From Scenedesmus sp. ARA3 (Eukaryota > Chlorophyta > Chlorophyceae > Sphaeropleales > Scenedesmaceae): a DNA stretch of 64,000 bases. The notes beneath the pieces were generated by a model. It ran no database searches, was not told where the DNA came from, and saw nothing but the letters and a program-made list of their open reading frames with translations. Where the stretch lies: assembly GCA_004335835.1 (NCBI GenBank), contig RWJK01001913.1, forward strand, positions 1 through 64,000, in the 5' to 3' direction. Position numbers and translations under genes: made by a program. Positions within the stretch are counted from its first letter, which is position 1; every line of letters begins with the position of its first letter. Below are positions 12,041 to 63,140 of the stretch, piece after piece.

Positions 12041-15000
12041 ATGTCAAAGCAGCGTGCAAGTCAAGCTTCCCACCGCACGCCCCCACGCACTCGCGCCAAT
12101 AACCTTGCATGCATGTCTCCCCACCAATTTACGCCTGCATGTGGTGTGGCGCAGCAGCAGCGGCTGCGCCCGCTGCGCAGCACTGGCACAGATGAGCGGG
12201 CTTCCACTGGCACTGATGAGCGGCTGAAGAGCACACTGGCTGACTTGGATGCTCTGCTGGGCATAAAGGAGGAGGAGGAGCAGGAGGAGGCCAAGGTGGG
12301 ACTGTTATTAAGTTGTTATTTACTTGTTACTTTGTTATAACATGTGATTGTTTAGTTTGAGGGATACGCCAGCAGCAACAGGAGCGCCAGCAGCGGCGAT
12401 AGCGGGCAGTGCAGGTCGCACAGCGTGTGACGGACGTTGTCTGACAGCGTGCTGCATGCATATGTGCAAGCATACAGAGCACAGCTGGGGCTGATGACAG
12501 CATGAGTACTGCTTTCAGCCAGGCATGCAGGCCTTGTGTATGCTGGTGCAGGCAGCTGCTGGTTTTCTTTTCATTCTGTTTCAAACCTTCAATGATCGGC
12601 CTTGCCGCGTACAGTGCTGTGCATCAGCGCACCTGCATACACTGCCTGCTGCTGCTGCCGCTGCTGCTGCTGCAGGCTGCCGCCAGTGGCGTCAATGCTG
12701 AGTCAGCAAACTTGGAGCTGATGCAGTCTGCAGTGACAGCAGAGGTGGCCAAGCTTGCAGGAAAAGCGGGGGAGGGCAAGGCCACCTCGGAAATGGAGCG
12801 GGACATGACAGATCAGATGGTGCGTGGGGGTTGGGGCTAAGGCAGCCAGGGTTGGACACAAGCAGCGGGGTTTGAGGCTCTAAGGTGGCGGCAGAGAGAA
12901 TGCAGCAGTTGCAAGTCCAGCGGGACATGACAGATCAGACGGTGGGCGAGGGGTGGAGCCAAGGCAGCCAGGGGTGGAAACAAGCAGTGGGTTGTAAGGT
13001 TCTTACATCGGCAGCGGAGAGCAGTCGTATGCCTAGCATACTACGAGCAGCAATCAGCAGCCGCGTCATGGAGCCGTCAGCATGCACTCAGACTGCACAG
13101 CAGCAGCACAGACCAGATGGTGCGTGAGGGGTGCAGCAACGGCGGCTGGGAGCTGGTGATTGTTTTGAGTGTGGAGATGGCAGCAGATGGCAGCAGAGAG
13201 CAGCTGTGCGTCTAGCTTGCCACGGCACAGCGTTGAGCAACGATACTTGTCAGCAGCGCTGTAGCTGGAAGCACGCGCTCAGTCTGCGCAGCAGCAGCAG
13301 CAGCAGGAGCTTTGTCATCTGCATCGCTGAGCATCATGCCCTGCTTGATGCTATGTGTCTCTCGCTTGCTGCTGTGCCGTGGCTGTCAGTCCTTGCCGTG
13401 CCATGCATCACACCCTGCCTGCCGTGCTACTGAGACATTGCTTCCCATGCTGTGTGTCCCATCTGACCTGTGCTGAATTCAACGCACTGTGCTGCTGCTG
13501 CTGCTGCTGCTGCTGCTCCTGCTGCTGTGTCTGCTGCAGCGCAAGCTGGTGGAGCGCGCCAAGCAGATGACTGAGGAGGACAGCAGTGACAGGTCGCAGC
13601 AGAAGGAGGCACTGCAGCAGGAGTTTGAGCAGCTGCTCAACATATTCTTCACAGGTGCGGCAACAGCAACAGCAACAGTGGCAGCATCAGCAGTGACAGT
13701 GGCAGCAGCAGCAGCAGTGGCAGTGACACTGCAGGCGAGCAGAGGGACAGGAGCAGCGGCAGGGGAAGGGGGTCGCAGCATGCATGAGCAGCAGCAGCAA
13801 ACCAGAACGCAGCGGGCGTGTGCTCAGTATCGGCCCCAGCGCGGCAGTTGGTACTAGCTTCATCAGCAGCGGATGCCTGTAAAAGCAGCCTGATAAGAGG
13901 CAGCTGCATGCTTGCGTACGTCTGTGTGACTCAGCAGCGGTCATGCCATGATGATGAGGTCGCTGCACTTCTGTTCAACGTGTTCATCATCATCAGGACG
14001 TGCGCACAACACCTTATTGACGCTGCTGTCGCTGCTGCCTCCGCTGCAGGCGAGAACAGCATGGACAAGGCAGACATAAACCGGCTCAAGGAGAGCGGCG
14101 TGTTTGGCCCGCTCACCTTCTGGGTGACAGAGATCAAAAACCTGGAGGAGGCGGGCAACCCCAATGCAGCAGTGAGTGTGCAACACACAGCTGACAGCAC
14201 ACCAGTTGCCCAGCGAACTGAGGAAGGAGTGAGGGCGATGAGCAATGCTGCAGCTGTGGCACATTGCACGTGCATGTGAAGCTTGGCAGGCATGGCGTGC
14301 CTGAGTGCTGCCAAAAACATTGTGGTGCGCTGCTTGTGTGTCGGGTGGCACGTCAGCCCGCGGGCGTGGCAGTGGCAGCTGCTGTGATGTTGCACACCTA
14401 ATGCACCTCGCATCATAACGGTACCGTGTGCACTGAGGTCGTGTTTGTGCCGTCACTGCCGTCTGCTTGCGCTCCGGCTCGCCCCACCTCATTTCCTGCC
14501 CGCCTCACCCTCCCGCCTCACCCTCTGTCACCCCGCCCTGCCTGCACTCCGCAGTCTGGCGTGCTCATCCGCGGCAACATGCGCTCAGACCGCGCCAGCG
14601 TCTTCCAGTCGCTGTGTGACAAAGTGCAGGAGCTGTTCGGCCCCAAGTACTCGGTGCTGATGATTGAGGATCCAGAGGCGCTGGGAGAGGACGAGCCGGC
14701 GCCGCGGCCAGTCAAGGCGGCTGATGGCAGCGCAGCAGCAGCAGCAGCACCAGAGCCGCGGGTAGCGTTCCAGGTGCGGCGGCTGCGAGGGTCCTGCGGG
14801 TTCAAGCAGGCATGGCAAAGGTGGTGACGTTAAGGGCTTGTTTTTGACATCAGCTTCAGCTTTCGGCTTGATTTGCTGTGTCAAAGGTTGGCGTAGTGGT
14901 GCTGATTATTGAAGATCCAGAGGCGCTGGGAGAGGACGAGCTGGCGCCTGTGCGGCCAGCCAAGGCGGCTGATGGCAGCGCAGCAGCAGCAGCAGCACAG

Positions 15001-15193
15001 GAGCCCCGGGTAGCGTTCCAGGTGCGCCGCGGCTGCATGCTTTGAGTTCCGAAGGTGCGCTGCTGCTTGTTCAACTGCTGCTGGCTTTCTTGTTGTACAC
15101 TGCCAGCTTGGGTTCGAGAAGTGGCACTGCTGCGGGTCACTTGTTGTACACCACAAAGGAATGGTGCGGCGCTGATAGCGTGCCGTGGTGTTC

Positions 15194-15225
<32 letters not shown>

Positions 15226-17743
15226 TGGTGCTGACATCTGAGGTCACACCCCCGCAGACAAACGGCTGGAAGGTGACTGTGGCAGGTATACTGCTGCTGC
15301 TGCTGATGGCCAGCTGCGTGCAGCTGTCGCTGGTGGCAAACATCACCAAGCTGCCTAAGGTGGGGGTTTTAATGGGTTGTGTGTTGGAGGGAGGGTGAGG
15401 CGCAGGACAGCCTGTTGCGGAAGTAGCAGGCATGTATAGCTATGCAGGGCGTGTTGTCACCGCTGTGATAAGATAAGACGCAGCAATTGCTGCATGCATG
15501 GCTCTGCAGCGTCATGCAGGGCACATGCGTGGCTCAGTTGCCTGTGCTGTGGCTGCTGACATAGCCAGGTGGCTTGTAAGCTGGGTGACACGCATCAAGC
15601 AGTCCTGTACCTGCTGGATGCTCCGTCGAATCGAATTTCACACAGGCGCTTGAACACATCAGCCGTATGCTGACATGCCGTGTGTGCCACTGCGCGTAGC
15701 ACCACCAACAACTCTGCAGCCTTTGAACAGCTGCTGCATGTGCTCTGTCTTCTCTCTGTACACGCTGTACTTGCAGGAAACATTGGAGTGGCTGGCCAAC
15801 CCCGACAACCTCAACACAGACGTGCTGCCGCCCGGCCTCGCAAACTGGGACCCCTCTCCCTACCTCGCATCAGCCTTCCCAGTGGCTATCTCCATCATTG
15901 GCGTGAACTTCATGCATGAATTGGGCCACCGCGTAGCAGCAGCAGTGCGCGGCGTAAAGCTGGGCCCAACCTACTTCATCCCAAACCTGCAGATAGGTAG
16001 CTTTGGGGGGATCACGCCGCTGCTGAGCTTGCTGAAGGACCGCAGCCAGCTGTGGGACGTGGCAGCAGCAGGGCCGATTGCTGGCGTGTCTGCCAGCATC
16101 GCGCTGCTGGCGATCGGGCTCAGCCAATCGCACCCGGGGGGCCTGCCGCAGGTGTGCACAGTGGCTGTTATGTGACGTGTTACATTTGACGAGGTGTCGC
16201 TGGCACCAAGCTCACACGTGTGTGTCTTGCAGCAGGCAAAGGTGTTTAATTAGCTAGGCGCATGCATGAGTTCAAATCATAGGATGTGAAGCGATGGTGC
16301 GTCCAGTGCCCTGCTTGTACTGGCACACTCGTCCCATGCAGCGCAGCTGGGTGCATGCCCCCGGCAGTTGTTGCAGTGCTGTGCATGCTGTGCATGCGGC
16401 ATGCTCATCATGTGCATCAGCACACAGCTACCCGGCTGGTTGGCACAGCAGCTGCTTGGATGCTCCTTCGCATGTGCGCTGTACTGCGCTGATTCCCTTG
16501 TCCCTGCTGCTGATCTCCTGGCTGCTGTTTGTCTGCTTGCTGCTGCTGCTGCCCCCCAGGAGCTGCTGGTGCCTGTGCCCACGCAGCTGTTCCAGGGCAG
16601 CCTGCTGGCCCCTGTGCATGTGCGCTGCCTCCTGCTCACTTCTAAATCTCTGCTGCTGCTGCTGCTGCTGCTGCTCCCCCCCCCACCCCACCCACCCACT
16701 CCACCCACCCCACCCACCCAGGAGCTGCTGGTACCTGTGCCCACGCAGCTGTTCCAGGGCAGCCTGCTGCTGGGCAGCGTCACGCGGCTGGCGCTGGGGC
16801 CGGAGGCGCTGGCACGGCCCGACGTGATGATCAGCCCGCTGGTCATTGCAGGTGGGTAATCATAAATAGTTTCCAAGCAAAGTGCTTTATTGACGCCTGT
16901 AAAGACTTTACTGACAGTGCTGGGGTTTGGCGGCGGTGTGCTGTATGGATTCTTATTATGCATAATGCATGTGGGGCTCGCGCTGCGCGCAACGTTCTGG
17001 CTCCACCCGGCGTGCTCATCAGCTTGCTGGTCATCACAGGTGGGCGGTGGGCTAGTGGTTGCTTGCGGTTGTGGGGGCGGTGTGCTGCATGTATACAGAG
17101 TGGTCTAAGGCTGGCAAGGCTCATCAGCCCACTGGTCATCGCAGGTGGGCGGCAGGCTGGGGTGTGGGGGTGGTGTGCTGTTTGAAGTCCATGTATGCAT
17201 CGTGAATGTGAGACTGGCACTGGGGCTCCAAGGCATTGACGCTGTGTGCGCTTCTAATTGAGTGAATGCACAGGCACTCGTAAGCAGGCGCCAGCAGCAG
17301 GCGCGTTTTGATTGATGTCGAAGCAATCGCGCTTCTGATCTCACACGCGCTGTTCTGCCGCTGCTGCTTGCGCATCCCCTGTAGGCTGGTGCGGGCTCAT
17401 CACCAACGCCCTCAACCTGCTGCCGGTCGGCTGCCTAGACGGCGGCCGCATGGTGCAGTCTGCGTTCGGCATGCAGGCCCTGAGCCTGAGTGCCTTCTTC
17501 ACATATGTGGGCCTAGGCTTAGGCCTGCTTGGCAGCAGCTTGAGCCTGCCTTTCGGCCTGTACGTGCTCATCTGCCAGCGCACAGCGGAGAAGTACATCC
17601 AGGATAACGTGTCGCCGGTGGCGAGCCAGAAGCAGACGGCAACAGCGATTGCGGTGCTGACGGCAGTGCTGGTGCTGGTGCCGATGGCACCGGAGGTTGC
17701 GCAGTCGGTGGGAGTGGGGCCGACACCCAACCTGTTTATGTGA
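12041..17743 (+). CDS. EGY-type chloroplast site-2 metalloprotease (M50 family)
   Basis: Nine exons join in phase to 617 codons: 12041-12295, 12676-12819, 13540-13654, 14050-14171, 14555-14773, 15225-15359, 15777-16151, 16722-16851 and 17385-17743. The N-terminus is rich in Arg, Ser and Thr and poor in acids, as expected of a plastid transit peptide, so the ATG at 12041 was chosen. A segment reading LIRGNMR matches the GNLR-type motif of EGY proteins. Exon 6 encodes a hydrophobic helix. Exon 7 carries the zinc motif HELGH and the following FIPNLQIGSFGGIT. Exons 8-9 encode LFQGSLLLG and NLLPVGCLDGGR, the second catalytic motif holding the metal-binding Asp, then two more membrane helices. In plants EGY proteases act in thylakoid membranes and chloroplast development. 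EGY1 and EGY2 cannot be separated here. Three places in the gene carry duplicated exon edges. Confidence 0.93.
12794..13125 (+). repeat. Triplicated tail of EGY exon 2 with its splice donor
   Basis: The last bases of exon 2 (near 12796-12819) and the donor recur at 12918-12941 and, shortened, at 13108-13119. The intron sequence after the first two copies is also similar (a G-rich stretch, then an aaggcagccag motif). Only the first copy keeps the reading frame from the upstream exon. Confidence 0.8.
14899..15021 (+). repeat. Second copy of the 3' half of EGY exon 5, with donor
   Basis: About 120 bp repeats 14656-14773 almost exactly, including IEDPEALGEDE coding sequence, the Ala run and the GTGCG donor. 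The copy stays open in the same frame, but I see no good acceptor in the right phase in front of it, so it is probably skipped. If included it would duplicate about 40 residues. Confidence 0.85.
16560..16607 (+). repeat. Upstream copy of the 5' edge of EGY exon 8 with acceptor
   Basis: The 48 bp repeat 16722-16769 with a single difference and are preceded by a C-rich acceptor ending in CCCCCCAG. The copy breaks off after the LFQGSLL codons and has no matching donor, so I take it as a relic or a decoy 3' splice site. Confidence 0.85.
17014..17150 (+). repeat. Two downstream copies of the EGY exon 8 tail with donor
   Basis: The exon 8 end (16829-16851, encoding ISPLVIAG) recurs at about 17015-17039 and 17121-17144. 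Each copy ends in CACAG or CGCAG followed at once by GTGGGC, so it could serve as acceptor or as donor. The flanking G-rich intron sequence is also shared between the two copies. Confidence 0.8.
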
Positions 17744-17765
17744 GGGGTGAGGAATGGGCATAGCC

Positions 17766-17835
17766 TGTGGTGTGGTGTGGTGTGGTGTGGTGTGGTGTGG
17801 TGTGGTGTGGTGTGGTGTGGTGTGGTGTGGTGTGG
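17766..17835. repeat. (TGTGG)14 pentanucleotide microsatellite
   Basis: Fourteen perfect copies of TGTGG start 22 bp after the EGY stop codon, so they probably lie in its 3' UTR. Confidence 0.97.
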
Positions 17836-19596
17836 TTTGAGGCGTAGCCGGCCATAGATGGTGTTTGTTTGAGGGGTTGGTGATGTGTAGCCTGGCAGTG
17901 CGGCGCCTTCACAGCGTGGCTGATGCGTCAAGGCGTCGTGGTGTTCTGGGGTGGGGTGGAACGTCACGAGGGTGTGGTCGATGCAGGTGTGATGTTTGTG
18001 ATATTGATGCCGTGCTGCGTTGTTGTGTTGTGTTGGTCGGCACGCAGGCCTTGTCTTGATCCAGGACCTTGCCGGTCTGGCTTATGTGGTTGCGTGGCGC
18101 GTGCTGTGGCTGTGCGAGGGAATGAGATGGCACATGCCTCCCCCTTCATGTGTGATTGCAGCCATATGCGGTGCACAGCCCTGTGCGGCTGCATCAGATA
18201 CAGCCTGCATGCTGCACAGTATCGCCGTGGCATGTGTGCTGCTGCTGTGTGGCAGCGCACGGCTGCTGCCCGGGATGCTGCTGCATCTGCAGGGGAAGGC
18301 TGTCGCAGCTGCAGCCGGGCTGCTGTGCAGGTGGGTGCAGCTTGCAGACGAGTTACGCTGCGATCAGACATCTCTTGTGTGGGCTGCTTTGGGCTGATTC
18401 AGGTGCATTGCGGCTGATTATGGGCCGGCTCAGTCCATAGGTAGCCTTAGCTTGCAACGGGGCATGGCACTGCAGTGGGGCTGCCACTGCTGCTGCAGTC
18501 CTGGTTTTGCAGGTTTTGCAGGTTCGATCTTTTTGGATGCTGCTGTTGGGTGCATGGTGCAGGATGCTGCACTGCTGGCTATCAGCGTCCAAGGTTGTGC
18601 AGCAGTTTGATGTGTTCGTCGCTGTGGTGTGCTGCGGTGTATACTCATTTTTTCTATCGTAGAGTGCAGGGTCAGCAGCTCTAGGACGTCTTCATGCTGC
18701 GGAGGGCATGCATTGCTTCAGCTTAACAATGCCAACAAGCATACATGTGCATGGCTTAGTGTGCACAGCGTGGTTACTGGGTCAGCAGGACTGTGCTGCA
18801 GTAGCTGCACTAGCACAGTAGCACCTTGCGGTTGCCACTGCTGTCATGGTGCTGTGTCGTAGTATGCACCCAGACACCGTGTCGCGGCGTAGCGCATCCT
18901 CATGTTACACGCCAACGATGTTACTGGACTAACCAGGCTTCAAAACGATCAGAGTCAGCTCACAGCCGGTGCCATTGTGTGCAGCAGCAGCAGCAGCAGC
19001 ACACTTCCAGTGTGGAGGGCTGTCCACACACCGGTACAGGGCGCACTGCTGCTGTTTAGCAGGCAGTACATATGCACTGCTTGACATGCTGATCAGATGG
19101 CTGTTTGTAACAGAAAAGGCACAACGGTTGAGCAACCATGACGGCTGAGCGAGCAAGGCGCTACCGGCGGGTTGTAGCTACAACCAAAACTTGCTGCGGC
19201 CGCTGCATCTAAAGCAGCGAAGCATCGCAGACTGAGAAATCAGGGAGACCGCAGCATCAATTTGGGATGTTGATCACAAGTCATGCATATGAAACAAACA
19301 ACACATGGCATGCACGCTTGCCGCATCTGTCAAGATCTGCACATGCACATGTGTACTGCACACTGCAGCTGTCAGAGAGCTGCACCAGAGGGTAAGATAT
19401 TCTGTTGCTGGAAGTGGCACATCAATTTTTCACGCAGGACGCAACTGGGGAACTCAACAACCTGCAGGACGCAACGTGATACCTTGCGGCACACGCGTAC
19501 TGTACACAGTATGCTCCTGTACATCGCTGTGCCAGGTGGCACAGTGCTGCAGGATTTTGATGATGCACACAGCACTGCTCCCATGCCCCCAGCATA
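17836..19596. other. Intergenic region between two convergent genes
   Basis: The EGY gene (+) and MUS81 gene (-) end towards each other here. No open frame with a recognisable domain is present. The region probably holds both 3' UTRs. Confidence 0.6.
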
Positions 19597-20074
19597 TCAC
19601 TCGAGCACAATGACATCATCGTCATCATCAGGCTGCGTCTCAAGCACAATCACCTCTGCAGCAGCAGGGGCATGCTGCTGTTTCCAGCTGCCTGCAGCTG
19701 CTGCTGCCCCTGCAGCACGCGACCCTGCTGCTGCTGCAGCTTGCCCAGCCTCAGGCGCAGATGCAGCTGCTGCAGGCTGCTGCTGCTGCTGCTCGTCTCC
19801 ATCACAGTCGTCAAACATCATCTCATCTAGCCACTCCTTGAAGCTGCTGCCAGATGGCGTCGACGATGGCTGCTGCTGCTGCTGCTTCTGGCGCGCTGTG
19901 TGACTGGGCTGCAGATGTGCTGAACCTTTGCTAATTCCAGCATCATCACCCAGCACCTCCTTCTCCTGCTGCTGCTGCCTGCGGCAGCCAGACGAGCCCT
20001 GATGCAAGTTCTGCTGCTGCTGCTGCTGCTGCTGTTGCTCCTGCAACCGCAGCCGCTGCTCAACACCCGCTGCC

Positions 20075-20112
<38 letters not shown>

Positions 20113-22076
20113 ACCGTCCCTGCGCTGCAGCTCTTCTGCCAGCCAGCAGCAGCGGCTGCCAGCCACCTGCAGCAGGATCTCAGTGGCCCGTGCAGTCTGG
20201 CACAGCTGCAGATGCCAGCCATGCTGCAGCAAGCACAGCAGCCACAGCCACAGGCACTGCCTGATGCCCTCAGCATTGAAGCTGCATGCCTCTGCCTGCC
20301 GCTCTGCTGCCTTCTTCGTTGCTGCTTTGCTGCCAGTGTTGACTGCGGCCTGCTGCTGCACTTTGGCCGTGTAGGTGACGGCACCAAGCAGGTCCCGCAC
20401 CATCAACATACGGCAAGGCTGCCGCTGCTGCTGCTGCGTGCTGTTGCTGCTGCCGGGTGCCTGGCTGCTGCCAGTGCCGATGCCAGCATCTGCAATGAAG
20501 CTGTCTAGAAGTGAAGCCAGCAGCGTAGCAACCTCCTGTGCAGCTTCTACTGCCTCTGATACTGCCAGGCCAGCTGCTGCTGCTGCTGCACCCCCAGCAG
20601 CTCCTATGTCACCTGCTCCTTTGCCAGCTGCCACAGCAGCTGCATGGAAGCCATTCAGCAGCTTCAGCAGGCTATGCCCTTCTACACTGACTATCTGCAG
20701 CTGCGGGTAGCTCCTGTGGCTGTACAGAGTCAGCCCAGCAAACTCACTCTTTGCTGCGCCTCGAGTGACGCTGAACGCCACCTCAGGTGACACCGGCGAC
20801 ACTGCAGCCATGCTGCAGAGCTCCATCGGCAGCTGGGACCTTGGCAGCCTGTGATTCACCTGCTGGCACAGGCTGGCAAACTCTGGGTATCTGGTCTGTG
20901 TAGCTGCCAGCAGCTTATGCTGCTGCTGCTGCTGCTGCTGCTGTGTTGAGTTGGCTGCGTGGCGCTGCAGCTGCTGCATCTCGTGCAGCAGCAGCTGGCT
21001 CATTGCCAGCAGCACCGCGCGCGTGTCGCCCTCCGAAGGTGTCAGCAGGATGCGCTGCGTGCCACCATACGGGCTCACCGCAGCCCTCACAATAAAGTCA
21101 AAGAGTGAGGCCTCGCTGTCAACAGTGCATGCTGCAGTGCTGCTGCCCGGCCCCGGCTGGTATACGGTGTAGCGGCCTGCCATGTGGCTCAGGTTCTCCA
21201 GCAGCAGCAGCTGCAGCGGCACGAGCTCGCGCAGCTGGTACATGCGCTGCAGCTGCCGGATGTGGTCCCTGCGCATGCAACACATAGCGTTGCGGGTTGT
21301 GGCAGTGCGATTGCCAGGAGTGGCAGCAGCACAGCAGGCAGAGAAGGAAATGGCCGAGAAGCCCTGCAGATGAGCAATCGCACGCCCCTGATGTAGATGC
21401 ACTGCATGCGCATAGTGCTGCAAGCCTTGAGAGAGCGCCAGGCAGCACCTGCATACCGACCATGCTGCCCATGTGCCAAAGTATCTGTCACACAGCCAGC
21501 CGGCACCCCACTCACCCTGCTGCGGATCTGCCCACCAGGTCCCGCATCGTCTTGCGCTCCACCACAGCACCAGCGAGCACGCACGCGGCTCGCTCAGCAG
21601 CAGCAGCACGCTCGTCTGCCTGCTCATCTTCACTGTCGGCATCTGCAGCTGAGGGTGCAGCACCGGCTGGCAGCATCAGCCATGTGTAGTCACCCAGGGG
21701 CAGCCTGTCCCGGTCAACGTCCAGCTGCATAGCACACACACGGGGCAGCAGAAAACACAGCACAGCAGCAGATATACTCAATACACAGGATACAGATACA
21801 GATACGCCTCAGACTCAACATGACGCAGTAGTTTACACGGTCTTGCTCTCAGATTGCAAGAAAGGTTGTACATCTCACAGCTGGCAGCAGCAGCAGCGGC
21901 AGCTACAGCCACGCCTGCGCCTCACCGTGGCGCCCTGCAGCAGCTGCTGCAGCCGCATGTGCTCCTGGCGGATGTTGCTGAAGATCTTCAGGTAGTCGTC
22001 CTCGGAGCGCCGCTCCTTGTCATCAACCACCAGCTTCAGCTCAAAGCCAGTGCTGCTGCTGCCCACCAAACCCGAC

Positions 22077-22116
<40 letters not shown>

Positions 22117-48917: not shown

Positions 48918-48948
<31 letters not shown>

Positions 48949-49846: not shown

Positions 49847-49884
<38 letters not shown>

Positions 49885-51678
49885 ACTGCTACCACTCCTG
49901 CTACTGCTGTTCCCTCAGACCATCACCAGGGAGGGCTTCAAGGGGCTGTACAAGGGCATGTCGGCACCGCTGGCAACCGTGGCGCTGTTTAACGCGGTGC
50001 TGTTTGCCTCGCGGGGCCAGATGGAGGTGCTGCTGGCGCACAAGGACGGTGAGCAAAAGCAGCAGCAGCCGCTCAGCCGCGAGCAGGGGATGTTCCAGTG
50101 CCAGTCGAGCAGTAGCAGCGGCACTGTTGTTTGCTCATGACCTGCAGGTGGCCCGCGTGGGCTTTTTGCATTGCAGCAGCTGCCGCAGATGTCATCACTC
50201 ATTTGCACATGTGCTGACATGCCGCATCTGCTGCTGCTGCTGCTGCTGCTGCTGCCTCTGCCGTGGCTGCCGCAGGCTCCCCGCTGGTGATGCGTGACCA
50301 GCTGCTAGCCGCAGTGGGTGCCAGCTGTGCGGTTAGCCTGGTGGCTACTCCCACTGAGCTGATGAAGTGCAGGCTGCAGGCGCAGGGCTGCAGCAAGACA
50401 GCAGTGCAGCGGCTGCTGGATGCAGGCCTGGACGTGGCAAAGGTGAGGCAGCCGGAAGCAGCCAGAGTTGGTTGACGCTGAGCAGCAGCTGTAGTGATCG
50501 ACTTGCAGCTGATGTGCATTGGCCACCTCCTGCGCTTAGCAGGGCAAATGTTGTGGCTGCGACACCCTTGCATCCTCTCTTCTGTGAGCTGCTGTTGCTG
50601 CTGGTGCGCATTTCCCAGTGCAGCAGCATGCTCTGTGGTGTTCAACAATGCTGCCACTCAGGCTGTGAGCAATGCTGCCGCTGTTCGGCTTGGCCTTCGT
50701 GCTGCATTTGCGCAGCCGCACCTGGCTCTGTCCCTTGCACTAGGACTGTTGTCAATGCTGCTGCTGCCTTGTCTGCTGCTCCTGCTGCATCCCTCTGCCT
50801 GCTACCCTCCCTGCTGCAGCACACCATATACCGGGGCCCGCGTGACGTGGCGCGGCAGGTGCTGGCGCATGAGGGCGGGCCGCTGGGTCTATTTAAGGGC
50901 CTGGGGGCCACGCTGGGCAGGGAGAGCATCGGCAACATGGCCATGTTTGGCGTGTACGAGCTGGTGAAGCAGCAGGTGGTGGAGCTCAAGGTGAGGCTCT
51001 AGCGGCATGGTCTGGCTGGTAGCATTGGCAGCAAGTCTGACGGCGTCGTCAGGGACTGCGTGATGGTTGGAGCTGCAGCCAAGTCAGCAGCAGATATTCT
51101 ATATCAAGGGCTTGGTCAGTACTCTGAACCCGCCTTCTTTGTTGCTGGTGAAGCAGCAGGTGGTGGAGCTCAAGGTGGGGGGGGGCTGGCGCGGCTGGCA
51201 GGCTTGCTGTGCAGCAAGATGTACGGCGTAGCTGGCGACTGTGTGATGTCCTGAGCTGCAATCAAGCCAGCAGCAGACAAGTTGATCAGCGGTTCCATCA
51301 GCACTTTGAACCCGTGCCCTTCTTTGCTGTCTAATGTGCGTTTCCCCTCCTCCTCCTCCCGTATCATTGCAGGGCCTGCCCAGCAAAGAGCAGCTGTCAT
51401 TCTCCGACCTGCTGCTGGCTGGCGGCCTGGGCGGCACCGCCTTCTGGCTGGGCTGCTACCCACTGGATATCATCAAAAGCAAGCTGCAGGTAGACAGCTA
51501 CACACACCCCAAATACAGAGGCATCCTGCACTGTGGGCGGCAGGTGGTGGCAGCGGAGGGGCTGCACGGGCTATTTCGGGGTTTTGCGCCCGCGCTGGTA
51601 CGCAGCTTTCCTGCGAATGCGGTGTGCTTTGCTGTGTATGAGGCCACCAAGTCGCTGGTGAACAGCGTGATCAGCTAG
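49006..51678 (+). CDS. BOU: Mitochondrial carrier of the BOU / acylcarnitine-carrier-like type
   Basis: Seven exons join in phase: 49006-49014, 49190-49258, 49619-49690, 49919-50048, 50276-50442, 50820-50990 and 51373-51678, giving 307 residues, the usual carrier size. The three signature motifs are PFDTIK, PTELMK and PLDIIK, each opening one of the three repeats of two helices, and the order and linkers (DLTAGTMAGVAQL, GLYKGMSAPLATVALFNAVLF, GLFKGLGATLGRE, GLFRGFAPALVRSFPANAV) match plant A BOUT DE SOUFFLE. That carrier sits in the inner mitochondrial membrane and is linked to photorespiration; its substrate here is inferred. The ATG at 49006 has an ideal context (CACCATGG) and gives MAVDLTAGT, as in the family. 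An in-frame ATG at 48859 would add 49 residues with poly-Gln. Exon 6's end is repeated in the next intron. Confidence 0.9.
51145..51174 (+). repeat. Exact copy of the carrier exon 6 tail with donor
   Basis: Thirty bases identical to 50961-50990, followed by GTGGGG, lie in the next intron. The surrounding sequence (51030-51143 and 51215-51330) is also repeated in degenerate form with a period near 180 bp. Confidence 0.9.
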
Positions 51679-52703: not shown

Positions 52704-52753
52704 NNNNNNNNNNNNNNNNNNNNNNNNNNNNNNNNNNNNNNNNNNNNNNNNNN
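52704..52753. other. Assembly gap (50 N)
   Basis: A run of N. The true length and content are unknown. Confidence 1.
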
Positions 52754-53536: not shown

Positions 53537-54531
53537 ATGACTTTCCCAGCCAAGCAGCTGCAGCAGCGAACAGTCATCACGGCATCAAGTGCTGTCAGCT
53601 ACCTGTGCCCAGCCACTACAGAAGACACATCATTCACGCAGCTTCAGATACCGAAAGAGCCCAGCTCCCGTTGCCAGCAACAAGCCGTGCCTCCAGCCCC
53701 CTCCTGCATGGCACAGCTGGAAGATGCCTTTCATGCAGAGTATCACAGCACACATGAGCCGCTCAGCAAGGCGCTGCTGCGCCTGTTGTATTGTGACCTG
53801 GCGGCATCAGCCTGGCAGCATGCACTGGAGGAAGAGCGGCGCAGGGATGCAGCAGTGCGTGGGTACCAGGAGATCTGCAGGAGGCGCCAAGAGAAGGTGA
53901 GGGCCAGTGCAAGTCCAGCACTGCTGCTTGGCAAGTGCATGTGATGCAGCTGGGCAGGCAAGGCCTGCAGGGCAACTGGCAGTAGATGATGCAGGCAATA
54001 TGTGCACGCCTGTATGCATCGCGCGGGCGCGGAGCTGTATGCATCTACACTGCAGCAGCATGGTTCGGTTGCTCTGAGCAGCTGCTGAGTCAGCAGTTGC
54101 TGCACTCCTTCCTACTCTCAACAGGGCTTTATCTGCTCTGTTGTCCCACTGCAGGGCATCCCAAACAGCACAGCCCACAAGATCAGGCTGAATGAGGAGA
54201 TGCTGGCGCGCGTGCTGCCAAACGCAACACCACGCCAGCCAGCCAGCCGCAAGTTTGTCCCTGTTTCAAAGGTTTTCACCAACCCTTCAGCGCAGGCAGC
54301 GCTGGTGACAGCCACGCCGCAGCCAGCAGTGATGGAGGCAGGCCTACAAGCAGCAAACGATGCAAGAAAGGCAGCTGCCAGCCAGCTGGCGAGTTTGCTG
54401 CTGGAGCAGCTGGAGTACCAGCCAGCTGCTGGAAGCAGCAGCAGCGGCAGCAGCAAAAACGGCAGCAGACCCTGTGGTGACAGCAGCAGCAGCAGCAGTA
54501 GTAGTAATAGCAGCAGCAGCAGCAGCAGAGA

Positions 54532-54567
<36 letters not shown>

Positions 54568-55339
54568 CACCCCTTTGATCATTCAGCCCAACTGGGCAGC
54601 GCTTCCTGACAAGCTGCTGCTGTTCTGCATGGCTCTGATGCACAAGGCCGGCCTCACAACATACTATGGGCAGTACAGCATGCCGCACCGAGATGCTGGC
54701 AGTGCAGAGACAGACAGCAAACATGATGCAGCAACGGCGCAGCTGGAGCAGCAGCTTGACTCTTCAGCTGTTGTGCGAAACATGCTGAGGTTTGGCAGCG
54801 GACTAGGCGCTGGGCTTGCAGCAGCAGCTGGGCAGCTCGGCCTGTTAGACGGCCAGCTGGCAGAGGCAGCATCACGCGTGTGGCCAGCAGGCAGCGTGCA
54901 CCAGCTGAGTGCACGCTGGCTGCGCGTTGTGTCGCGTGTGCAGCCTCACGTCGTGCTCAGCCTGCTGCACCGCTGGCAGTGCTTGCCGCTGGGCTTGCGC
55001 GTGGCACACGCCAGCTGGCAGCAGCTGCAGGCTGAGCATGATGGTGTCAGCGAGCAGCAGTGGGGCCAGCAGTTGCGGTCACCACTGGTAGTACAGCACA
55101 CGGCAGCACAGCTGACACCACGGGCAGAAGCTAGGCAGCAGTCAGCAGATCAGCTCGCAGCATCTGAGCAGCTGGAGGTTGAGCCATGGCTCAGCAGCTG
55201 CGCAGGAGATGGGCGGGGCGGGTGGCAGAGCTTGACGGCTGTGGGGACAGATGAGGAGGGGAGGCGGGCTGGGGAGCTGCAGCTGCTGCCCTGCTTGCGG
55301 CGAGGGCAGCGTGAGGGCGCGCTGGTTGCTGTAGCTTGA
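53537..55339 (+). CDS. Protein of unknown function, Ser/Ala/Gln-rich
   Basis: Two exons (53537-53896 and 54155-55339) join in phase to 514 residues. I do not recognise a family. The first exon ends in a charged, helical stretch (HALEEERRRDAAVRGYQEICRRRQEK). The second begins with a polar segment, then a Ser run of about 35 residues encoded by AGC repeats (near 54480-54565), then an ordered-looking part with NWAALPDKLLLFCMALMHKAGLTTYYGQYS, Ala/Leu helices, and WLRVVSRVQPHVVLSLLHRW. The C-terminal 100 residues are Gln/Glu-rich. No signal peptide or membrane segment is evident. The ATG at 53537 is the first in frame after the upstream region; a spliced upstream exon is possible. The two-exon structure with a good donor and acceptor, and a frame open for almost 1.2 kb, argue that it is a real gene. 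Confidence 0.7.
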
Positions 55340-56310
55340 GCCAGCAATATGTGAGTCTTGTGGTTAGATGTGGTCTCATCTGGCTGTCCGATGTTGCGGC
55401 AGCTCGTGCCACATTGGCGCATATGCTGTGCTGACTTGGCTCAGTGAGCTGGAGTGGAACTTCACCAGACTCATGCTCTTTGCAAGAGGGGCACACTAAA
55501 ATGGCTAGGCAGGCGGCTTTCTCCTGGACAAAGGCTGGCTTTGTTGCGGAGGCAGTGTCATTGCTGGGTGTGTAGGAGCCACCAGCCCCAGAGGCCCCAG
55601 TCTGCCTTCCCCATCCTTGGCAGGGCTTAGCAATGGTGAAGAGCCAGCAGCATGTCTCTATTTGTCGTCGCTAACTTGCAGATTTTTTGAGCATACCAGC
55701 AATCTGGTTTTGTATCTGGAGCTGAAGCTGCTCGGCAGTGAAAACACGGCAACTTGACAGTTATGGCAACGCGTCAAACCTGTTCCATATGGCGCAAAGC
55801 ACAGGCGATCGCCTGGTCCGAGCAAGCGATCTGCAGCCTACGAATTTGTTCCGTCGTGTTTGCCTGATCCCCTGATAAAAATCCGTCGGCACGACACATC
55901 AGCTGCTTGCAGGCAACTGGAACAGTTGCAGGCCTGACAGCTTTGAATCAAGCTCAACCTCCCATGCAGGCGCTGATCAGCCATTTTTGATAACACTTAC
56001 TTCTGATTAGGATAGCTGCATGCTTCCTGCAGGCCTTGGCAGCACGCACCAGCAGCAGGAGCAGATACAGCCCAGCAGCAGCAGCAGCAGTAGCAGGCTA
56101 CCCGGACGGGCGGCATGCACAGCCATACAACACTTCACATGCACAGCCATATACCATTTCAGATCAGAAGCATCTGCTTGTTTCTCTTTCTGTTTTCATA
56201 CACACACCAAGGCAGCTGCAAAGGCCTAGCAGCTGCCAGCAGCAGGCAACACACAGCTCTGGCAAAACAATCTACAAGCAGCAGGCGACAAGCACCAGTG
56301 TTTCGCAGGT
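55340..56310. other. Intergenic region
   Basis: No gene recognised. From about 55,490 to 55,990 the base composition is closer to even and lacks CAG repeats. Just before the metalloprotease there is a possible small upstream exon (56115-56308) with a signal-like frame, but its phase does not fit the next exon. Confidence 0.45.
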
Positions 56311-57734
56311 ATGTGGCGATGCACACAATTCACCTGCACATTGCTGATCTGTTGCTTCCAGCTGGATGACTGCCGGCATCCTTGTCTTCTGCCACGCACA
56401 GCACGGTATATGTTCACCACAAGCAGTTGCAACTGCAGGTGTGGCACAATTGCACCTAGGCCAGACCACAGGTTGCTGCTTGAGCAAGACCACCGACAGG
56501 CTTCAGCAGCAGCAAGCCGTGTAGCCAGCACCACAGCAGCAGCAACCAGCACATCACCTGGCCTCATCAGCAGCAGCAACAGCAGCCAGCGTGTCTATGT
56601 CATCCCTACCTACGTGCACAATGTGCTTGTGGCGGACAGCACAGGCACGTTCTTTGGTGGCGTCACCCCGCAGCAAGTGCGCTTGCAGCTGGCTGCGCTC
56701 AACGCAGCGTACAACACATCAGCTCAGCAGGCAGGTGTCACATGGCGCTACAAGCTGGCAAACATCACCAACACCAGTGTCGCACTGGGTGCTGACATGT
56801 GCAATGAGCAGACAGAGGTGCGGCTGAAGAGGCGCTTACGGCAGGGCGGCGCAAGCGCGTTGAACCTGTATGTGACAGACATGTCGCAGTGTGGAGTGCT
56901 GGGTGCGTCCACCTGGCCGTGGGATTTTACAGGCGGCAGCAACAGCAGCAACAGCAGCAACAGCAGTGAACAGGGCCTTGGCCTAGGCAGCAGCAGCATT
57001 GGCAACAACAGCAGCAGCCGCAGGCTTACTGGCATCAGCAGCAGCAGTGAGGTCGTCAGCAGCAGCAGCGACGGCAGCAGAAGCAGCAGCAGTGGCGGCG
57101 GCCTGGTCATGGATGGTGTGATTGTGCACTATGGCACGCTGCCTATGGGCAAGGTGAAGGGCTACAACACTGGAGGCACAGCCATACACGAAGTGGGGCA
57201 CTGGCATGGTGAGGATAGCAGGACTTGGTGCTATTACACAGCAAGCTGGGCATGCATGCTGCTGAAATAACGGTCTGCATCAGCCTCTTGTTGTCATCAC
57301 AAGCCACTTGCACCCTCATGCAGCAAGGGTTCCAGTGCTTATGGCATGGTGCAGTGGCCACTGCCATGCCACTTAGATGTGCTGGAACCACCTGCACCGC
57401 ATCAACACTCAGCAGACATGTCTGTACATCTGTCGCATGCCACATTACTCCATCATTCTCATACACCTCATTGCTGCCTGTTGCAGGGCTGCTGCACGTG
57501 TTTGAAAACGGCTGCAGCCCACCGGGAGATGCTGTGGCAGACACGCCCTATTGCCTGCGGCCAGACAATGACAGCTGCCCCGCCAGCAGGGACAGCTGCC
57601 CGCAGCAGCCTGGCAAGGACCCCATCAGCAACTGGATGGGCTACTCTGTTGACAGCTGCATGAGCAGCTTCTCGCCAGGCCAGCTGCTGCGTGCAGAGCA
57701 GATGTGGCACAGGCACAGGCTGCCTGGCGGTTGA
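56311..57734 (+). CDS. Secreted M43 (pappalysin/cytophagalysin-like) metalloprotease
   Basis: Two exons (56311-57208 and 57487-57734) join in phase to 381 residues. The start MWRCTQF is followed by a short hydrophobic stretch that could serve as a signal peptide. Then come CRCGTIAP, as in the propeptide of the family, and the domain from VYVIPTYVHNVL on. The splice junction lies inside the zinc motif, which reads HEVGHWHGLLHVF after joining (HExxHxxGxxH). Downstream are the Cys-rich loop (ENGCSPPGDAVADTP) and the Met-turn region NWMGYSVDSCMSSF. These are hallmarks of M43 zinc proteases, which in algae probably act on the extracellular matrix; the substrate is unknown. A Ser/Asn-rich insertion of about 55 residues, near 56930-57105, lies before the zinc site. 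The N-terminal boundary is the least certain part. Confidence 0.85.
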
Positions 57735-58493
57735 GTGATTTGCCATGGGCTTGCCAGGTGATGCCGGCGTTGACAGTTGCACTTGATATCAATCAATCAT
57801 GATGTCGTGATGACACCATCACTGCGGACTCTACATGCGGGCCTGCGGTGCATGTGCGCGCTGATGATGAATGGTTGTGCGCCGAAACCACCATGCAGCT
57901 GCACATTCTGTATGCTGTGAGACTTTTGTCAAAGATGTCGAGTGTCGTATGCACGGTACATCATATAGAGCCAGTGATGATGCGTGTCGTGTTGACACTG
58001 GTTCAAGACTTCAGAGAGACCCAACACCCAGGGGTAGCTCATGTGACGCCTTTGACGTGGCGTGCACATGTTTTGCTACGCACATGGCAGCTGGCACAGC
58101 TGATTGCAGCCTGCAAGTATATGCACGGTGGATACACGTGTACTGTGTACTGGTATGGTGGATGGCTGCGCCTTGGTCTGTCCAGTGTTTTGTTGCGGTG
58201 AGGTGTTATGCCTCAGCTGTCATTGGCTTTCTTCATCTGTTGCACAGGCTTTGCGCTTGCCTTCGTCGATTGCATATGTGCTGCAGGGCTGAAGTTCAAA
58301 CCATGCCATGATGGGGTTCGACTGCTGTGATACCCCGGTACTACAGCAACTGCACACTCAAGCCAGCAACACAACTCATAAACACCTAACTTGTTGCTGT
58401 AACTTGCTCTGCTTTAACAAGCGATTCCGTGCTTGCTGTTGCCTAGCGCATCTACTGTTCCTTGACTCGCGCGCTCCGCCCAAGCTCAGCACA
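57735..58493. other. Intergenic region
   Basis: No gene or clear repeat recognised. It lies between two plus-strand genes and should hold a 3' UTR and a promoter. Confidence 0.5.
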
Positions 58494-60386
58494 ATGAGCA
58501 CATTGGCAGCTGTTACAAGATCTGCAAGCTCTGTGCAGTGCCAGGGGCTTCGGCAGCAGGCTCGGCCACACACAAGGTACTTTCAGTAGCACCAGCCAGA
58601 AAATATCTCCTACGGCATAGCAACAGGGACTCACAGCAACAGAAGGCCGATGCACCATACAAAAAATCACGAATCGTCGTGTGTTGCCCCCGCAGGCCGT
58701 TCACAGCGGCCGAAAGGCGCAGCAGCAGTTACAGCAGCTCTGTGCATGCCAGGAGCAGCAAGCAGCAGCAGTATGCTTGGGCAGCAGGCAAAGACATGCT
58801 GCTGAAGCCACTGCAGGCCACGGAGAACGACGGCTCTACCTTCGACTATGATGAGCCAGAGACAGCAAAAGAGGCCATCGACCTGGGGCTGGTGCTGTGC
58901 AAGCAGCAGAAGTGAGCACGGGGCGGCGTGCAGCAACAGTGCGTAGTATCGCTGCCTCTAATAGTCAACAGTTTGATAATGTGACAAGGAGTTGGCTACC
59001 ACAGCAGCGATTGTCATGTTGCAGTTTGCATGCTGATCAGGCAGCAACATTGTCACTGTGAAACCTCTTCATGCATCATCATCACTTTGAGACCCCTGCA
59101 CATGCATGCAGTTCTGTCATTGTTGACGTCACTGCTGAATCGACTGCTTCTATGTGAACCACGGACTACCTCTCTGCATGCCCCAAAGCGTCACAGGAAC
59201 AATGTTTGTTGTCCTGCAGGTGGGACAAGGCACTGACAATCTTTGAAAAGGGCCTCACACTTCCGGGTACTGGCATCAAGCGCTTCAGGTGCGGCGCAAA
59301 AGAAACTGCTGTGCCACTGCAGCATGTCGGATGGTGTGCCATCCTGCAAAAGCAGCAGCCAGCGACACAGCACAGCCGCCAAGGTGCAGCCGGCATGGCA
59401 GCGTTCCTGCTGATGTTGCTGGGCTGTGCCTCGGAATGTAAACCATATCTGCTGCTGCTGCTGCTGCTGCGGCTGCTGCACCCGCCTGCAGGGACAAGCC
59501 TCGCCTGATCAGCGATGGCGAGAAGATGGCGTCGCTGTACAACATCGCCTGCTGCCACGCGCAGCTGCAGGACGCACGCAGCGGCCTGGTGGCGCTGTCA
59601 GGTGGGGCCTGGCAGTGTGAGCCAGCAGCTGTGCAGATGCTGCAGCACGTGCCTGCAAATTGCTCCTGCAGCTGCTCCTGCAGCAGCTGTGCAGATGCTG
59701 GCGCCTGCTGGTCCAGCAGCCGTCTTTTTCTTCTGCACATGCTGCAGCCCGTGCCTGCAAACTGCTCCTGCATGTTGCATCAGCAGCTGGACCGTGTTGT
59801 ACATCGTGCCAAGACATGCACGGCTGCAGTGCACAAATGCACATGTGCAGTGCGTGCGCAGCGCTTCTGACGTGCTGCAACCACCTGCTGCTGCAACCAA
59901 CTGCTGTTCCTGCAGGCTGCATGGAGCTGGGCTACACGGACTTCAACCAGATCCGGACCGACCCAGATCTGGACTTCCTGCGCAAGGACTCACGCTTCGA
60001 GGTGCGCAGCACCTCTTCAAATAGTGCTACATGTTCAGAAGTCATGCAGCAGGCCTGTGCAAGTAGTGATAGGTCCGTGCGACCGGTTGGCTGCGTCATT
60101 TGTGACAGACAGGCCGTGCTATGAGGCAGGCTGGCATGCAGGATTTAGACAGGCACTGTGCATACGTAATTTTTGAGATGGGCGTGAAAGGGAGCGCTTC
60201 ATGCAAGGTGGTAACAGTTGCATTTACTGTGCCAACGCGAGGTGATGATGGCACTGCGACTGTACTGCCACTACAAGCAATGCTGTCCTGTCCTGTACTG
60301 CCCCGCAGGGCCTGATGGATCGCTTCCAGAAGAAGAGCAGCGGCTTCCTGGGGCTGGACTTCTCGGGCCTGTTTGGGAACAAGTAG
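58494..60386 (+). CDS. Small TPR-like protein with probable plastid transit peptide
   Basis: Six exons (58494-58576, 58696-58911, 59220-59288, 59492-59601, 59916-60001 and 60309-60386) join in phase to 213 residues. The first 60 residues are rich in Ser, Arg, Gln and Ala without acids, like a chloroplast transit peptide. The rest holds two TPR-like helix pairs: AKEAIDLGLVLCKQQKWDKALTIFEKGLTLPG, and EKMASLYNIACCHAQLQDARSGLVAL, followed by CMELGYTDFNQIRTDPDLDFLR, the D-x-D-x-x-x-LR ending common to such repeats. Related green-lineage proteins are plastid factors of uncertain role; none can be named. The C-terminus (FLGLDFSGLFGNK) is typical of this small group as I recall it, which is unverified. 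A TGTAA polyadenylation-type signal lies at 60443-60447, 57 bp after the stop. Intron 4 contains an internal repeat around GTGCCTGCAAA(C/T)TGCTCCTGCA. Confidence 0.85.
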
Positions 60387-60942
60387 AAGTTCATGCATGG
60401 AAGTTGGTTGCTGCTTGGGTGCTGCTGCACCGCATGGTGCTGTGTAACATTCGACCGGATGACTACGTCTATCGCCATATCTTGTCATCGTCTGGCATTG
60501 TTTGTCATTGAAGTATTTAGTTTGTGCAGAGGTTGCGTTCTCTATGGGGTGTCCTGACCACGGCGGTCGTACACGTACGTGACGTCACACCGACGCATGG
60601 GATGAACGCCGATGGAGGATGCCGCATACATAAAGGTCATGTTGCCTTGGGTATGCTTACAGTTCAACGTTCACCCTTTTGCACAGAAATCCGCGCTTTC
60701 GTTGAAAGCACGCGTGCATTCCCGCCTCAACATACAGCTGTCCGATTTGCCACCCGAGAAGTAAGAGCTTCAAGATTCAGCCCTCCTGAGCTGCACTAGG
60801 GGTAGCGAATCCGGTGCTTGAGTATATTACGATCAGGTTGTGCAGCTGCTGCCTGCTGTGCACTCTTGCTGTGCCGCTGCTGCTGCTGGCTGGCTGGCTT
60901 GCCTGAGCTGCTGCCTTGTTCATGTGCTGTAGATCAACCACT
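60387..60942. promoter_or_regulatory. Intergenic region with probable promoter of the second SDR
   Basis: A GCATACATAAAGG sequence near 60624-60636 is TATA-like and lies about 310 bp before the ATG at 60943. No other element was recognised. Confidence 0.3.
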
Positions 60943-62356
60943 ATGGCTGCCGCATCGCCAGAGAAGGTGAAGGAGCAGATCAAGCCTGAGGAGTCTGAGA
61001 AGCAGGTGCGGTGTGCTGCTGCTGCTGCTGTTGCCATAGGTTGACGTTTCCCTCCTCAGATCGTAGATCACTTCAGCAGCAGCAGCAGTTGCTGTAGCTG
61101 CAGATCTGCATGCTGCTCTAGAGCATGCAGAGCTCCGTCCTACATGCTTGATCTGACACGATCCACCCAAGATCAGCATGCTGGAAGGTTTCACAAGTGC
61201 AGAGTGCACAATGCGATGCTAGCCGAGGTTGCAAAACACCAACACAGCCTGCTGTTCTCGCTGCATGGATCGGCTCCTCACCTTAGCCACCTGCTGCTAC
61301 TGCATGGATCATTTCCTGCAATCATTATATGATCCATTTCCTGCAGGCTCACCAGCCCGGCATGGAGGTGGACATGGACACCAAGCCCATCTACATCAGG
61401 GACTCGTACAAGGGCAGCGGCAAGCTGCAGGGCAAGGTGGCCATCATCACAGGTGGGCAGGTACTAGGAATTCGTCAGATTGATGTTGGGTTGCTGGTGA
61501 TGATTGGCGGTGTTTTACAGTAGACAGCAAGCTGCAGGGCAAGGCAGCCATCATCACAGGTGGGGCGCTCTACACTCCTCAAGACATCATGTAACAATTC
61601 TAAAGGCAGCAGGACGGGTGCGGCAGCAGCCTGCAACTGCAGCACAGCAAGCTGCAGGTCAAGCTGGGTATCATCACAGGTGAGGCGGTCAGCACCATTA
61701 GATAATCTATGTGGCTGGACAGCTGCAGCAGCAGGGTAATGCGCACATGCAATGCGTGTGGGTCATCATGGTGGTGATGGGTGCATGCACAGTTGCCAAA
61801 TACAGTGTGGGTGGGTAAATTGTTGTCTTGGGCAAAGCTGCCAACTTGGCGGTTGGTTTGCCACACACGTGTTGAACCACTGCTTTGCTTTACACTGCGC
61901 TGCAGCATCACCTTACCCTGCCCTGGCGTGCCTTGCATTGCCTTGCATTCTTTGCAATGCATGCGAGTTGCGTGGTGAGCATAATTGCTTCAGACAACAC
62001 TTCATCAAGGTGCTATTCATGATGCAGTGCTCGCCACCAACTTCCCAACTCCTTGCACCACCCCAGGTGGCGACTCTGGCATTGGCCGCTGCCGCGATGC
62101 ATTTTGCTCGCAAAAATGCCGATGTGGCCATCCTGTGCATCAATGTGCACAATGCTACTGCTGCTGCTGCTGCTGCTGCTGTGCAGGTGGTGACTCTGGC
62201 ATCGGCCGTGCTGTTGCGGTGCATTTTGCGCGCGAGGGTGCCGACGTGGCCATCCTGTACCTTGATGAGCACAAGGATGCCGACGAGGTGGTGGAGCTGG
62301 TGAAGAAGGAGGGCAGGAAGTGCCTCAAGTTCAGCGGCGACGTCAGCAAGCCTGAG
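60943..62356 (+). CDS. SDR of the plastid aldehyde reductase / GsP39-like group, 3' part lost or beyond the array
   Basis: Three exons (60943-61005, 61347-61452 and 62187-62356) join in phase to 113 residues. The N-terminus has the hallmark of this SDR branch, a QPGMEVDM segment followed by YKGSGKLQGKVAIITGG and DSGIGRAVAVHFAREGADVAILYLDEHKDA; intron 2 splits the TGGDSGIG nucleotide-binding motif. Exon 3 ends GDVSKPE, where the family normally continues to the NNAA and YxxxK motifs. Those parts were not found in the remaining 1.6 kb, which instead holds a repeat array, a gap and a retroelement-like remnant. Either a very long intron follows, or the gene is broken. Related plant enzymes detoxify aldehydes with NADPH. 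Exon 2's tail, exon 3's front and exon 3's tail all have extra copies. Confidence 0.82.
61526..61686 (+). repeat. Two extra copies of the SDR exon 2 tail with donor
   Basis: The end of exon 2 (about 61420-61452 plus GTGGGC) recurs at 61526-61559 (donor GTGGGG) and 61646-61679 (donor GTGAGG). Each copy ends ATCATCACAG|GTG, which reads as an acceptor or as a donor. Confidence 0.92.
62062..62151 (+). pseudogene. Degenerate copy of the 5' part of SDR exon 3
   Basis: About 90 bp with clear similarity to the start of exon 3 (62187 on), including the acceptor and the GGTGGCGACTCTGGCATTGG core. It has a 2-base deficit near GGCCGCTGCC relative to the intact copy, so the frame is lost. It lies immediately upstream of the CTG run that precedes the real exon. 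Confidence 0.85.
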
Positions 62357-63140
62357 GTGAGTTAGACAAGTGTTTTGTGGTTTTGCTGGGAAGGATGGAG
62401 GCTAGTGTACACGTGTGACAGGTGGATTGGCTTGTTGATTTGGTTGCTGGTAGTGTCTCAAGTTCAGCGGCGACGTCAGCAAGCCCGAGGTGAGGACGGC
62501 AAGTGTTTGGGGTTTTGCTTGGAAGGATGGTGGCTAGTGTACATTTGCCGGGGAGTGTGTTGGCTAGTGGCTTGGTTGCTGGAACTGCCTCAAGTTCAGG
62601 CGGTATGCTGAGTGGCTTGGTTGCTGAAGTGATTCAAGTTCAGCGGCGACGTCAGCAAGCCTGAGGTGAGTCTAGACAAGTGTTCTTGGGGTTATGCTGG
62701 GAAAAATGGCGGCTAGTGTACATATTTGCAAGGCAGAGTGGTGTTGGCTAGTGGCTTGGTTGCTGGAACTGCCTCAAGGTCAGGGGGCGCTATGCCGAGT
62801 GGCTTGGTTGCTGAAGTGCCCCAAATTCAGGGTGACGTCAGCAAGCCCGAGGTGAGTTGAGCAAGAGTTGTGCGGNNNNNNNNNNNNNNNNNNNNNNNNN
62901 NNNNNNNNNNNNNNNNNNNNNNNNNNNNNNNNNNNNNNNNNATGTGGCAGGCGGAGTGGTATTGCTCAGTGGCTTGGTTGCTAGTAGTGCCTCAAGTTTA
63001 GCGTCGACGTCAGCTTAGCGTAAACGTCAGCAAGATAAGAGGTGAGACTACTAGACGGCTTGATGGTTACTGTGAAGAAGTGGTATTGCTTAACGGCTTG
63101 GTTGCTGGTAGTGCCATCAATTCAACGACGGCAAGCCACA
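62321..63140 (+). repeat. Array of about 130-bp units carrying the SDR exon 3 tail, donor and intron
   Basis: The 36-nt exon tail (TGCCTCAAGTTCAGCGG... to ...CCTGAG) plus GTGAGT and some 100 bp of intron is repeated. Starts of recognisable units are 62321 (the real exon end), 62453, 62630, 62817 and 62991, with further shortened starts at 62586, 62770 and 63111. Most units end in GGCTTGGTTGCTG(G/A)(T)AG, an acceptor-like end. The array is interrupted by a gap at 62876-62941. Confidence 0.93.
62876..62941. other. Assembly gap (66 N) inside the repeat array
   Basis: A run of N within the tandem array; more units may have been lost in assembly. Confidence 1.

Follow-up and report, generated by a model that had tools for sequence, protein, structure and literature searches.

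Exon edges in Scenedesmus sp. ARA3 occur as copies, together with their splice sites, in the neighbouring introns, and this pattern is real and wider than the three genes of the analysed window. The explanation that accounts best for it, to which we give a probability of roughly two in three (0.68), is that local tandem duplications crossed exon-intron borders, leaving spare copies that decay within existing introns and may occasionally provide a cassette exon. Directly seen were the copies and the way they are arranged, a surplus relative to controls, a neutral-like decay in the sampled genes and one copy that is common to another strain. Repeated duplication across exon-intron borders is supported by these data; intron gain is not.

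Copies of exon edges at eight borders

The window, that is, the whole stretch of DNA under study, covers positions 1-64000 of contig C1491, which belongs to an assembly with 1567 contigs and a total length of 87,267,035 bases. Three of its genes, EGY, a mitochondrial carrier and an SDR gene, were analysed by self-alignment of each gene region. When the exons of the carrier are joined, the product shares 99% identity with OEZ86_002745 of Tetradesmus obliquus; the EGY product, which matches Peptidase M50, reaches 99% with P0122 and 95% with P0121 of that species, and the SDR product is 100% identical to T. obliquus A0A383VGB4 (294 residues), with the whole query aligned for OEZ86_002745, P0122 and A0A383VGB4. 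Because the exon joins give proteins 99-100% identical to those of T. obliquus, the master borders hold and the copies are intronic. By the same matches, the alga is assigned to T. obliquus. A sequence-only reading had reported copied exon edges with their splice sites at seven places in these genes; self-alignment confirmed the copies and the splice sites but put the number at eight borders, all on the plus strand.

Four of these borders lie in EGY. At border 1, the master (12797..12898) consists of an exon tail, with the border after 12819 in agreement with P0122, and the intron start, and its copies occupy 12919..13146 (12919-13021 at 81% identity and a partial one, 13108-13146, at 79%). 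The border 2 master is an exon tail at 14653..14786 (border after 14773) with a copy at 14887..15036, of which 14898-15036 aligns at 91% over 139 columns. The copy's bases 14887-15021 form an in-frame open reading frame between AG and GT, and the encoded residues are found in neither of the T. obliquus EGY proteins P0121 and P0122. Border 3 is of the opposite kind: the master, 16714..16769, comprises an acceptor and the front of the exon starting at 16722, and the copy of this front lies upstream at 16552..16619, with 16552-16607 at 96%. Border 4 is again an exon tail, at 16809..16856 (border after 16851), copied within 16997..17149, first at 16997-17044 (79%) and then, for the tail end, at 17123-17149 (93%); protein comparison agrees with self-alignment on borders 3 and 4. 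Directly past the EGY stop codon, the window also holds a perfect TGTGG array of 14.2 copies (17766-17836).

In the carrier gene, the exon tail and intron of border 5 (50960..51144, border after 50990, placed by self-alignment and protein match) are followed immediately by a tandem copy at 51144..51329. The exact 30-bp copy described from the letters alone is indeed present here, the exon part being identical at 31/31 positions; the intron part matches at 112/146 with 9 gaps, making this copy a small-scale case of the mismatch between exon and intron sides discussed below.

The SDR borders were likewise placed by self-alignment and protein match. The exon tail of border 6 (61420..61457) recurs within 61527..61682, at 61527-61564 (95%) and 61647-61682 (89%). 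At border 7, the acceptor and exon front (62184..62274) have an upstream copy at 62064..62152 that is 80% identical and frameshifted relative to the exon. The earlier impression that duplications of several ages are visible is supported. Border 8, an exon tail with the start of its intron (62313..62380, border after 62356), is followed by an array of decaying copies spanning 62440..63166, with members from 62446, 62626, 62813, 62986 and, weakly, 63098. The second of the two runs of N in the window (52704-52753 and 62876-62941) sits within this array, so that the copy number there is uncertain. At the next SDR exon (C1491:64110-64991), the front recurs upstream three times, starting near 64146, 64327 and 64548, and the tail has one copy at 64944-64991; nearly every sampled border of the SDR gene thus has copies. 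Outside the green algae, the homologues of this gene (window 60933-63140, continuing to C1491:66386) are bacterial among the best 120 of 6002 matches, many of them from Deinococcus, with some 61-66% identity across almost the full protein length, and the gene may be an old bacterial transfer whose introns were all gained in algae.

Geometry of the copies and a proposed origin

For the wider analysis, we assembled a sample of 267,884 bases (268 kb, N included) from the window, the SDR paralogue and 20 further 10-kb regions. Genes were called with a small, purpose-written HMM gene finder trained on the sample itself, which gave 358 exons and 334 introns; outside EGY, the carrier and SDR, exon borders are therefore predictions of this program, and copies that it called exons were kept as a separate class in the substitution counts. 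Using 50-bp words from 156 exons of at least 150 bp, we found that exon tails were copied downstream in 20/139 cases and upstream in 2/140 (Fisher P 0.00003), while exon fronts were copied upstream in 11/140 and downstream in 3/139 (Fisher P 0.051). Words from exon middles gave 4/140 and 7/139; in the controls (714 each), copies numbered 1 for fronts, 8 for middles and 1 for tails. Tails copied downstream and fronts copied upstream are the geometry predicted by tandem duplication across the border, and adjacent direct copies spanning the splice border were found on the exon's intron side.

We infer the duplication process, the splicing at outer borders and any use of copies in mRNA. Short tandem duplications, with units mostly of about 90-150 bp, would have arisen locally and many times in the genome. 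Where such a unit lay across an exon-intron border, the outer border could still be spliced to give the normal mRNA, so that the duplication would be tolerated, and the spare copy would be left within the existing intron, either downstream, as a tail plus its donor, or upstream, as a front plus its acceptor. Some pairs could grow into arrays by further unequal exchange or slippage; the spare copies would decay as non-coding DNA beside a master exon held by selection, and an occasional in-frame copy with both splice sites might be read as a cassette exon. Triplet runs of CAG/CTG abound throughout the window, in exons and introns, often forming the tract before acceptors, and they might help recombination of the duplicated units.

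Frequency in the genome sample

At a score of at least 40 bits, the sample contained 230 local pairs (offset up to 1500) as against 39 distant ones (offset at least 2000), a density ratio of 47. Local duplication formed 78 clusters, 75 of which had a pair at an offset of 60-400. Among these 75 duplications, 54 were mixed between exon and intron, compared to 37.4 (sd 3.9) under random placement, 11 were exonic, 4 intergenic and 6 intron-only, the last class being smaller than the 16.3 (sd 3.5) given by chance, a shortfall that speaks against the proposed origin. The offsets of the 54 mixed pairs were 90-152 bp in 36 cases, 162-184 in 5, 214-272 in 12 and 394 in one. Viewed from the introns (n=312), the tail of the preceding exon recurred in 28 and the front of the following exon in 19 at a score of at least 40, versus 9 and 8 of 1560 in controls. 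For 50-mers copied into the adjacent intron, exon-edge words scored 26/324 and intron-internal words 48/982 (Fisher P 0.038), the control for the latter being 0/877. Since intron-internal words are copied as well, the data point to a general local duplication process with a moderate excess at borders, part of which is to be expected, as constraint keeps the master exon recognisable for longer. The enrichment of junction copies over intron words that the sequence-only reading called for is thus present, and modest.

A survey at the protein level covered 506 exon edges, of which 352 had a best match that passed the low-complexity filter; 67 reached a score of 50 or more at a distance of up to 800 bp on the intron side, compared to 0/591 controls. 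These 67 are an upper bound for intron copies, as of 58 matches at a score of at least 55 only 23 lay wholly within a called intron and the rest partly or wholly in a called exon; one hit, in the carrier at offset 682, is the carrier family's own internal repeat. The density of duplications was uneven, with 11 clusters in the 10 kb of region L034 and none at an offset of 60-400 in L022, L023 and L033. Beyond the sample, a chaperonin family search of the genome (E up to 10) returned 93 matches, and at 5/11 loci (C1492, C1032, C1016, C1530 and C1184) a family stretch was repeated at neighbouring places, counted by eye and with some matches weak; C1530 also figures in the sample, under the name L038, and an isolated weak match on C85 was not counted. 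The DNA of C1492 and C1032 confirmed the copies, with spacings of about 120-185 bp.

Judged by the edge 50-mers and by the tails of the geometry test, recognisable copies accompany roughly a tenth of exon borders; they are of many ages and sit in ordinary genes. To our knowledge, reports of tandem duplications that cross a border mostly deal with single cases; with copies this frequent, birth rate, decay and the fate of exons could be measured within one genome. Among the matches listed from the open-access literature, none described copied exon edges in Tetradesmus or Scenedesmus.

Mobile introner-like elements, which are known from green algae among others (PMC9860276), might carry or duplicate exon edges, and they share with the copies described here a genome-wide occurrence and a link to introns. 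Such a family should place near-identical intron sequence at many loci. However, two stretches with young copies and their spacers matched only themselves in the whole genome and revealed no shared element, and distant pairs are as few as given above; we accord this origin next to no probability. Genome searches with stretches from EGY, L037 and L038 found no second full source locus, save for short EGY matches. A probe search for spliced exon-exon pieces inserted in introns was set aside, since its hits were overwhelmed by simple repeats and by matches chiefly to the locus of the probe itself.

False local duplications could also stem from an assembly that misjoined short reads, filled gaps with them or merged haplotypes. 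The assembly is gapped, with N runs in the window and in 7/20 of the fetched regions, and, as a caution, the UTEX 393 genome was assembled from 101-bp reads and 248-bp inserts (PMC5255914), lengths similar to the offsets around 120 and 240 bp. Yet the copies differ from one another by 5-25%, arrays have related but diverged introns, and the copies respect exon borders, which are invisible to an assembler. Moreover, the border 3 copy of EGY at 16560-16619 is encoded in P0121, a protein of another strain from an independent record with a 7.56-Mb contig, so that this copy, the one checked in this way, is no assembly error. The EGY protein of the window differs at a few residues from both P0121 and P0122, and its assembly is therefore probably neither of theirs. 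Taken together, we consider an artefact very unlikely.

Ageing of the copies

Relative to their masters, copies in predicted introns (32 pairs) showed 58 synonymous, 78 non-synonymous and 2 stop changes, and counting by codon in 33 mostly intronic pairs gave 44, 74 and 1, with frameshifts in 6 pairs. By our own estimate, a free copy beside a constrained master should show about 40% synonymous changes; the observed counts are near this expectation, and most copies accordingly look non-coding. Coding selection on copies as a general rule is not supported by the 58:78:2 count in the sample collected by nucleotide similarity, the chaperonin copies aside. In 17 pairs with an alignable intron side, the exon side matched at 611/674 positions (9.3% divergence) and the intron side at 2334/2753 (15.2%), which is close to our estimate for a free copy paired with a constrained master. 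Splice dinucleotides were retained in 85% of 47 tail copies and 72% of 36 front copies, compared to 86% expected from identity.

The intron sides fit less well. Among 85 rows of the pair list, the intron side was alignable in 30, intermediate in 7 and unalignable in 48 (46/82 distinct pairs), although the exon sides of these 48 were 92% identical on average. This counts against simple duplication, as tandem copies of equal age should align on the intron side too. Homology past the border was at most 19 bp in 27/47 tails, the median of unrelated controls being 5 bp; the 17 pairs described above had 2 gaps in 674 exon-side bases versus 105 in 2753 intron-side bases, and comparing copy with copy gave 87.5% for the exon part and 72%, with many gaps, for the intron part. 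In our judgement, ascertainment through exon similarity and frequent intron gaps explain part of this mismatch but not all, leaving the well-kept exon parts beside unalignable intron parts as a concrete puzzle.

One answer would be active maintenance of the copies' exon part, either through gene conversion from the exon, perhaps with spliced RNA or cDNA as template and stopping at the border, or through selection as alternative exon pieces. In addition to the mismatch itself, the in-frame copy in P0121 would suit this reading, and so would 13 chaperonin copies in three stretches on two contigs, with 51 synonymous and 17 non-synonymous codon changes, even though these loci were picked by protein similarity and their copies share branches. 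Over all 82 pairs, first codon positions differed more often than second ones (102 vs 70 of 1426, P 0.015), which, with the chaperonin ratio, hints that some copies are or were coding. On the other hand, changes in intronic copies fit those of a free copy, divergence is in the expected ratio where the intron side aligns, and the pairs were found through exon similarity in the first place. An inner acceptor, as a mini-exon structure would have, was not in excess at tail copies (0.34 vs 0.30 in controls). The one diverged SDR paralogue, on contig C997, has its own arrays, with copies at the same three borders, and its first tail copy is closer to the window's copy (95% over 43 bp) than to its own exon (84% over 51 bp); its own exon has therefore not corrected it recently, and some copies are, on this comparison, probably older than the split of the paralogues. 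Active maintenance is hence an unlikely account overall, while keeping an appreciable minority share of our belief. Its strongest form, in which exon edges would be copied into introns at a high, continuing rate, the exon part being preserved by exon-templated, possibly RNA-templated, correction or by optional cassette use and the intron part replaced, seems doubtful to us. If true, introns would serve as a permanent breeding ground for spare exon edges and cassette exons.

The proposed intron gain and relation to known systems

The sequence-only reading had proposed that introns arise from these duplications, one copy supplying a donor and the next an acceptor, with the stretch between them becoming the new intron. 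Tandem duplication of AG|GT-containing sequence is established elsewhere as an intron source, being reviewed in PMC3443670, and for the potato RdRp gene a tandem duplication crossing an intron-exon boundary is described in PMC4974935. The reading's further statement that the copied edge often has the form CAG|GTG was borne out at the copied borders. As the ends of a new intron would lie in two copies, its donor and acceptor contexts should match in register. However, the register test of 237 predicted introns found a single one at a score of at least 9 (L026, 1520-1698; 0.1 expected) and none at 10 or above; at score 6, there were 5 and 3 of 237 versus 3.2 and 3.1 expected, and most thresholds gave the background level. 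In addition, the splice site carried by a copy is of the same kind as its master's and lies inside an intron that already existed. The proposed pairing of donor and acceptor was thus not seen on predicted introns, and intron gain strikes us as very unlikely to explain the copies.

The alga resembles the system reviewed in PMC3443670 in having tandem copies with AG|GT-like sequence and differs from it in that its intron ends do not lie within two copies. The potato RdRp duplication (PMC4974935), as in the alga, crosses a splice border and includes the splice signals, but it made one new intron in one gene, whereas in the alga many borders are hit, the copies sit in existing introns and no new intron was seen. 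The likeness to tandem exon duplication and mutually exclusive exons, a subject of PMC9013439 and PMC12343006, is that exon sequence is repeated within the gene and that some copies are open and called exons, such as the 69-nt units of region L029; most of the alga's copies, in contrast, are partial, with one border and 20-120 bp of exon.

Copies as candidate exons

Where the earlier proposal extended to cassette exons, it fared better than for introns. The border 3 copy of EGY at 16560-16619 (60 nt) is in frame, runs from AG to GT and reads ELLVPVPTQLFQGSLLAPVH, and exactly these 20 residues stand in P0121, a gene model rather than RNA, as an in-frame insert ahead of the normal exon. The insert is absent from P0122 and from the four aligned relatives P0126, P0146, P0124 and P0125. 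With this one concrete case, cassette exons derived from copies are plausible, judging from gene models. A whole exon with both splice sites and an open frame would be possible for this copy, for 14887-15021 and for the L029 units. A donor was located near the inner end of front copies at a rate of 0.44, compared to 0.17 in controls, in a count that includes copies called exons by the HMM gene finder.

Border copies could possibly furnish material for additional exons. Introns of this kind may be treated wrongly by gene finders and in short-read assemblies of such algae, seeing that a copy stands in one strain's gene model and is absent from another's. The SDR gene model P0250 of Scenedesmus sp. 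NREL 46B-D3 has KVPSSQVAAACS in place of its relatives' KVAIITG, as if a one-base-deleted copy of that exon tail had been taken for an exon, which hints at copies in another species. At L029:5072-5983, in a gene that we take to be SNF2-like from its residues, three units of 69-78 nt with the residues TAASHVMLMDPWWNP repeat the gene's exon tail; their codon changes are nearly all synonymous, and they may be real alternative exons.
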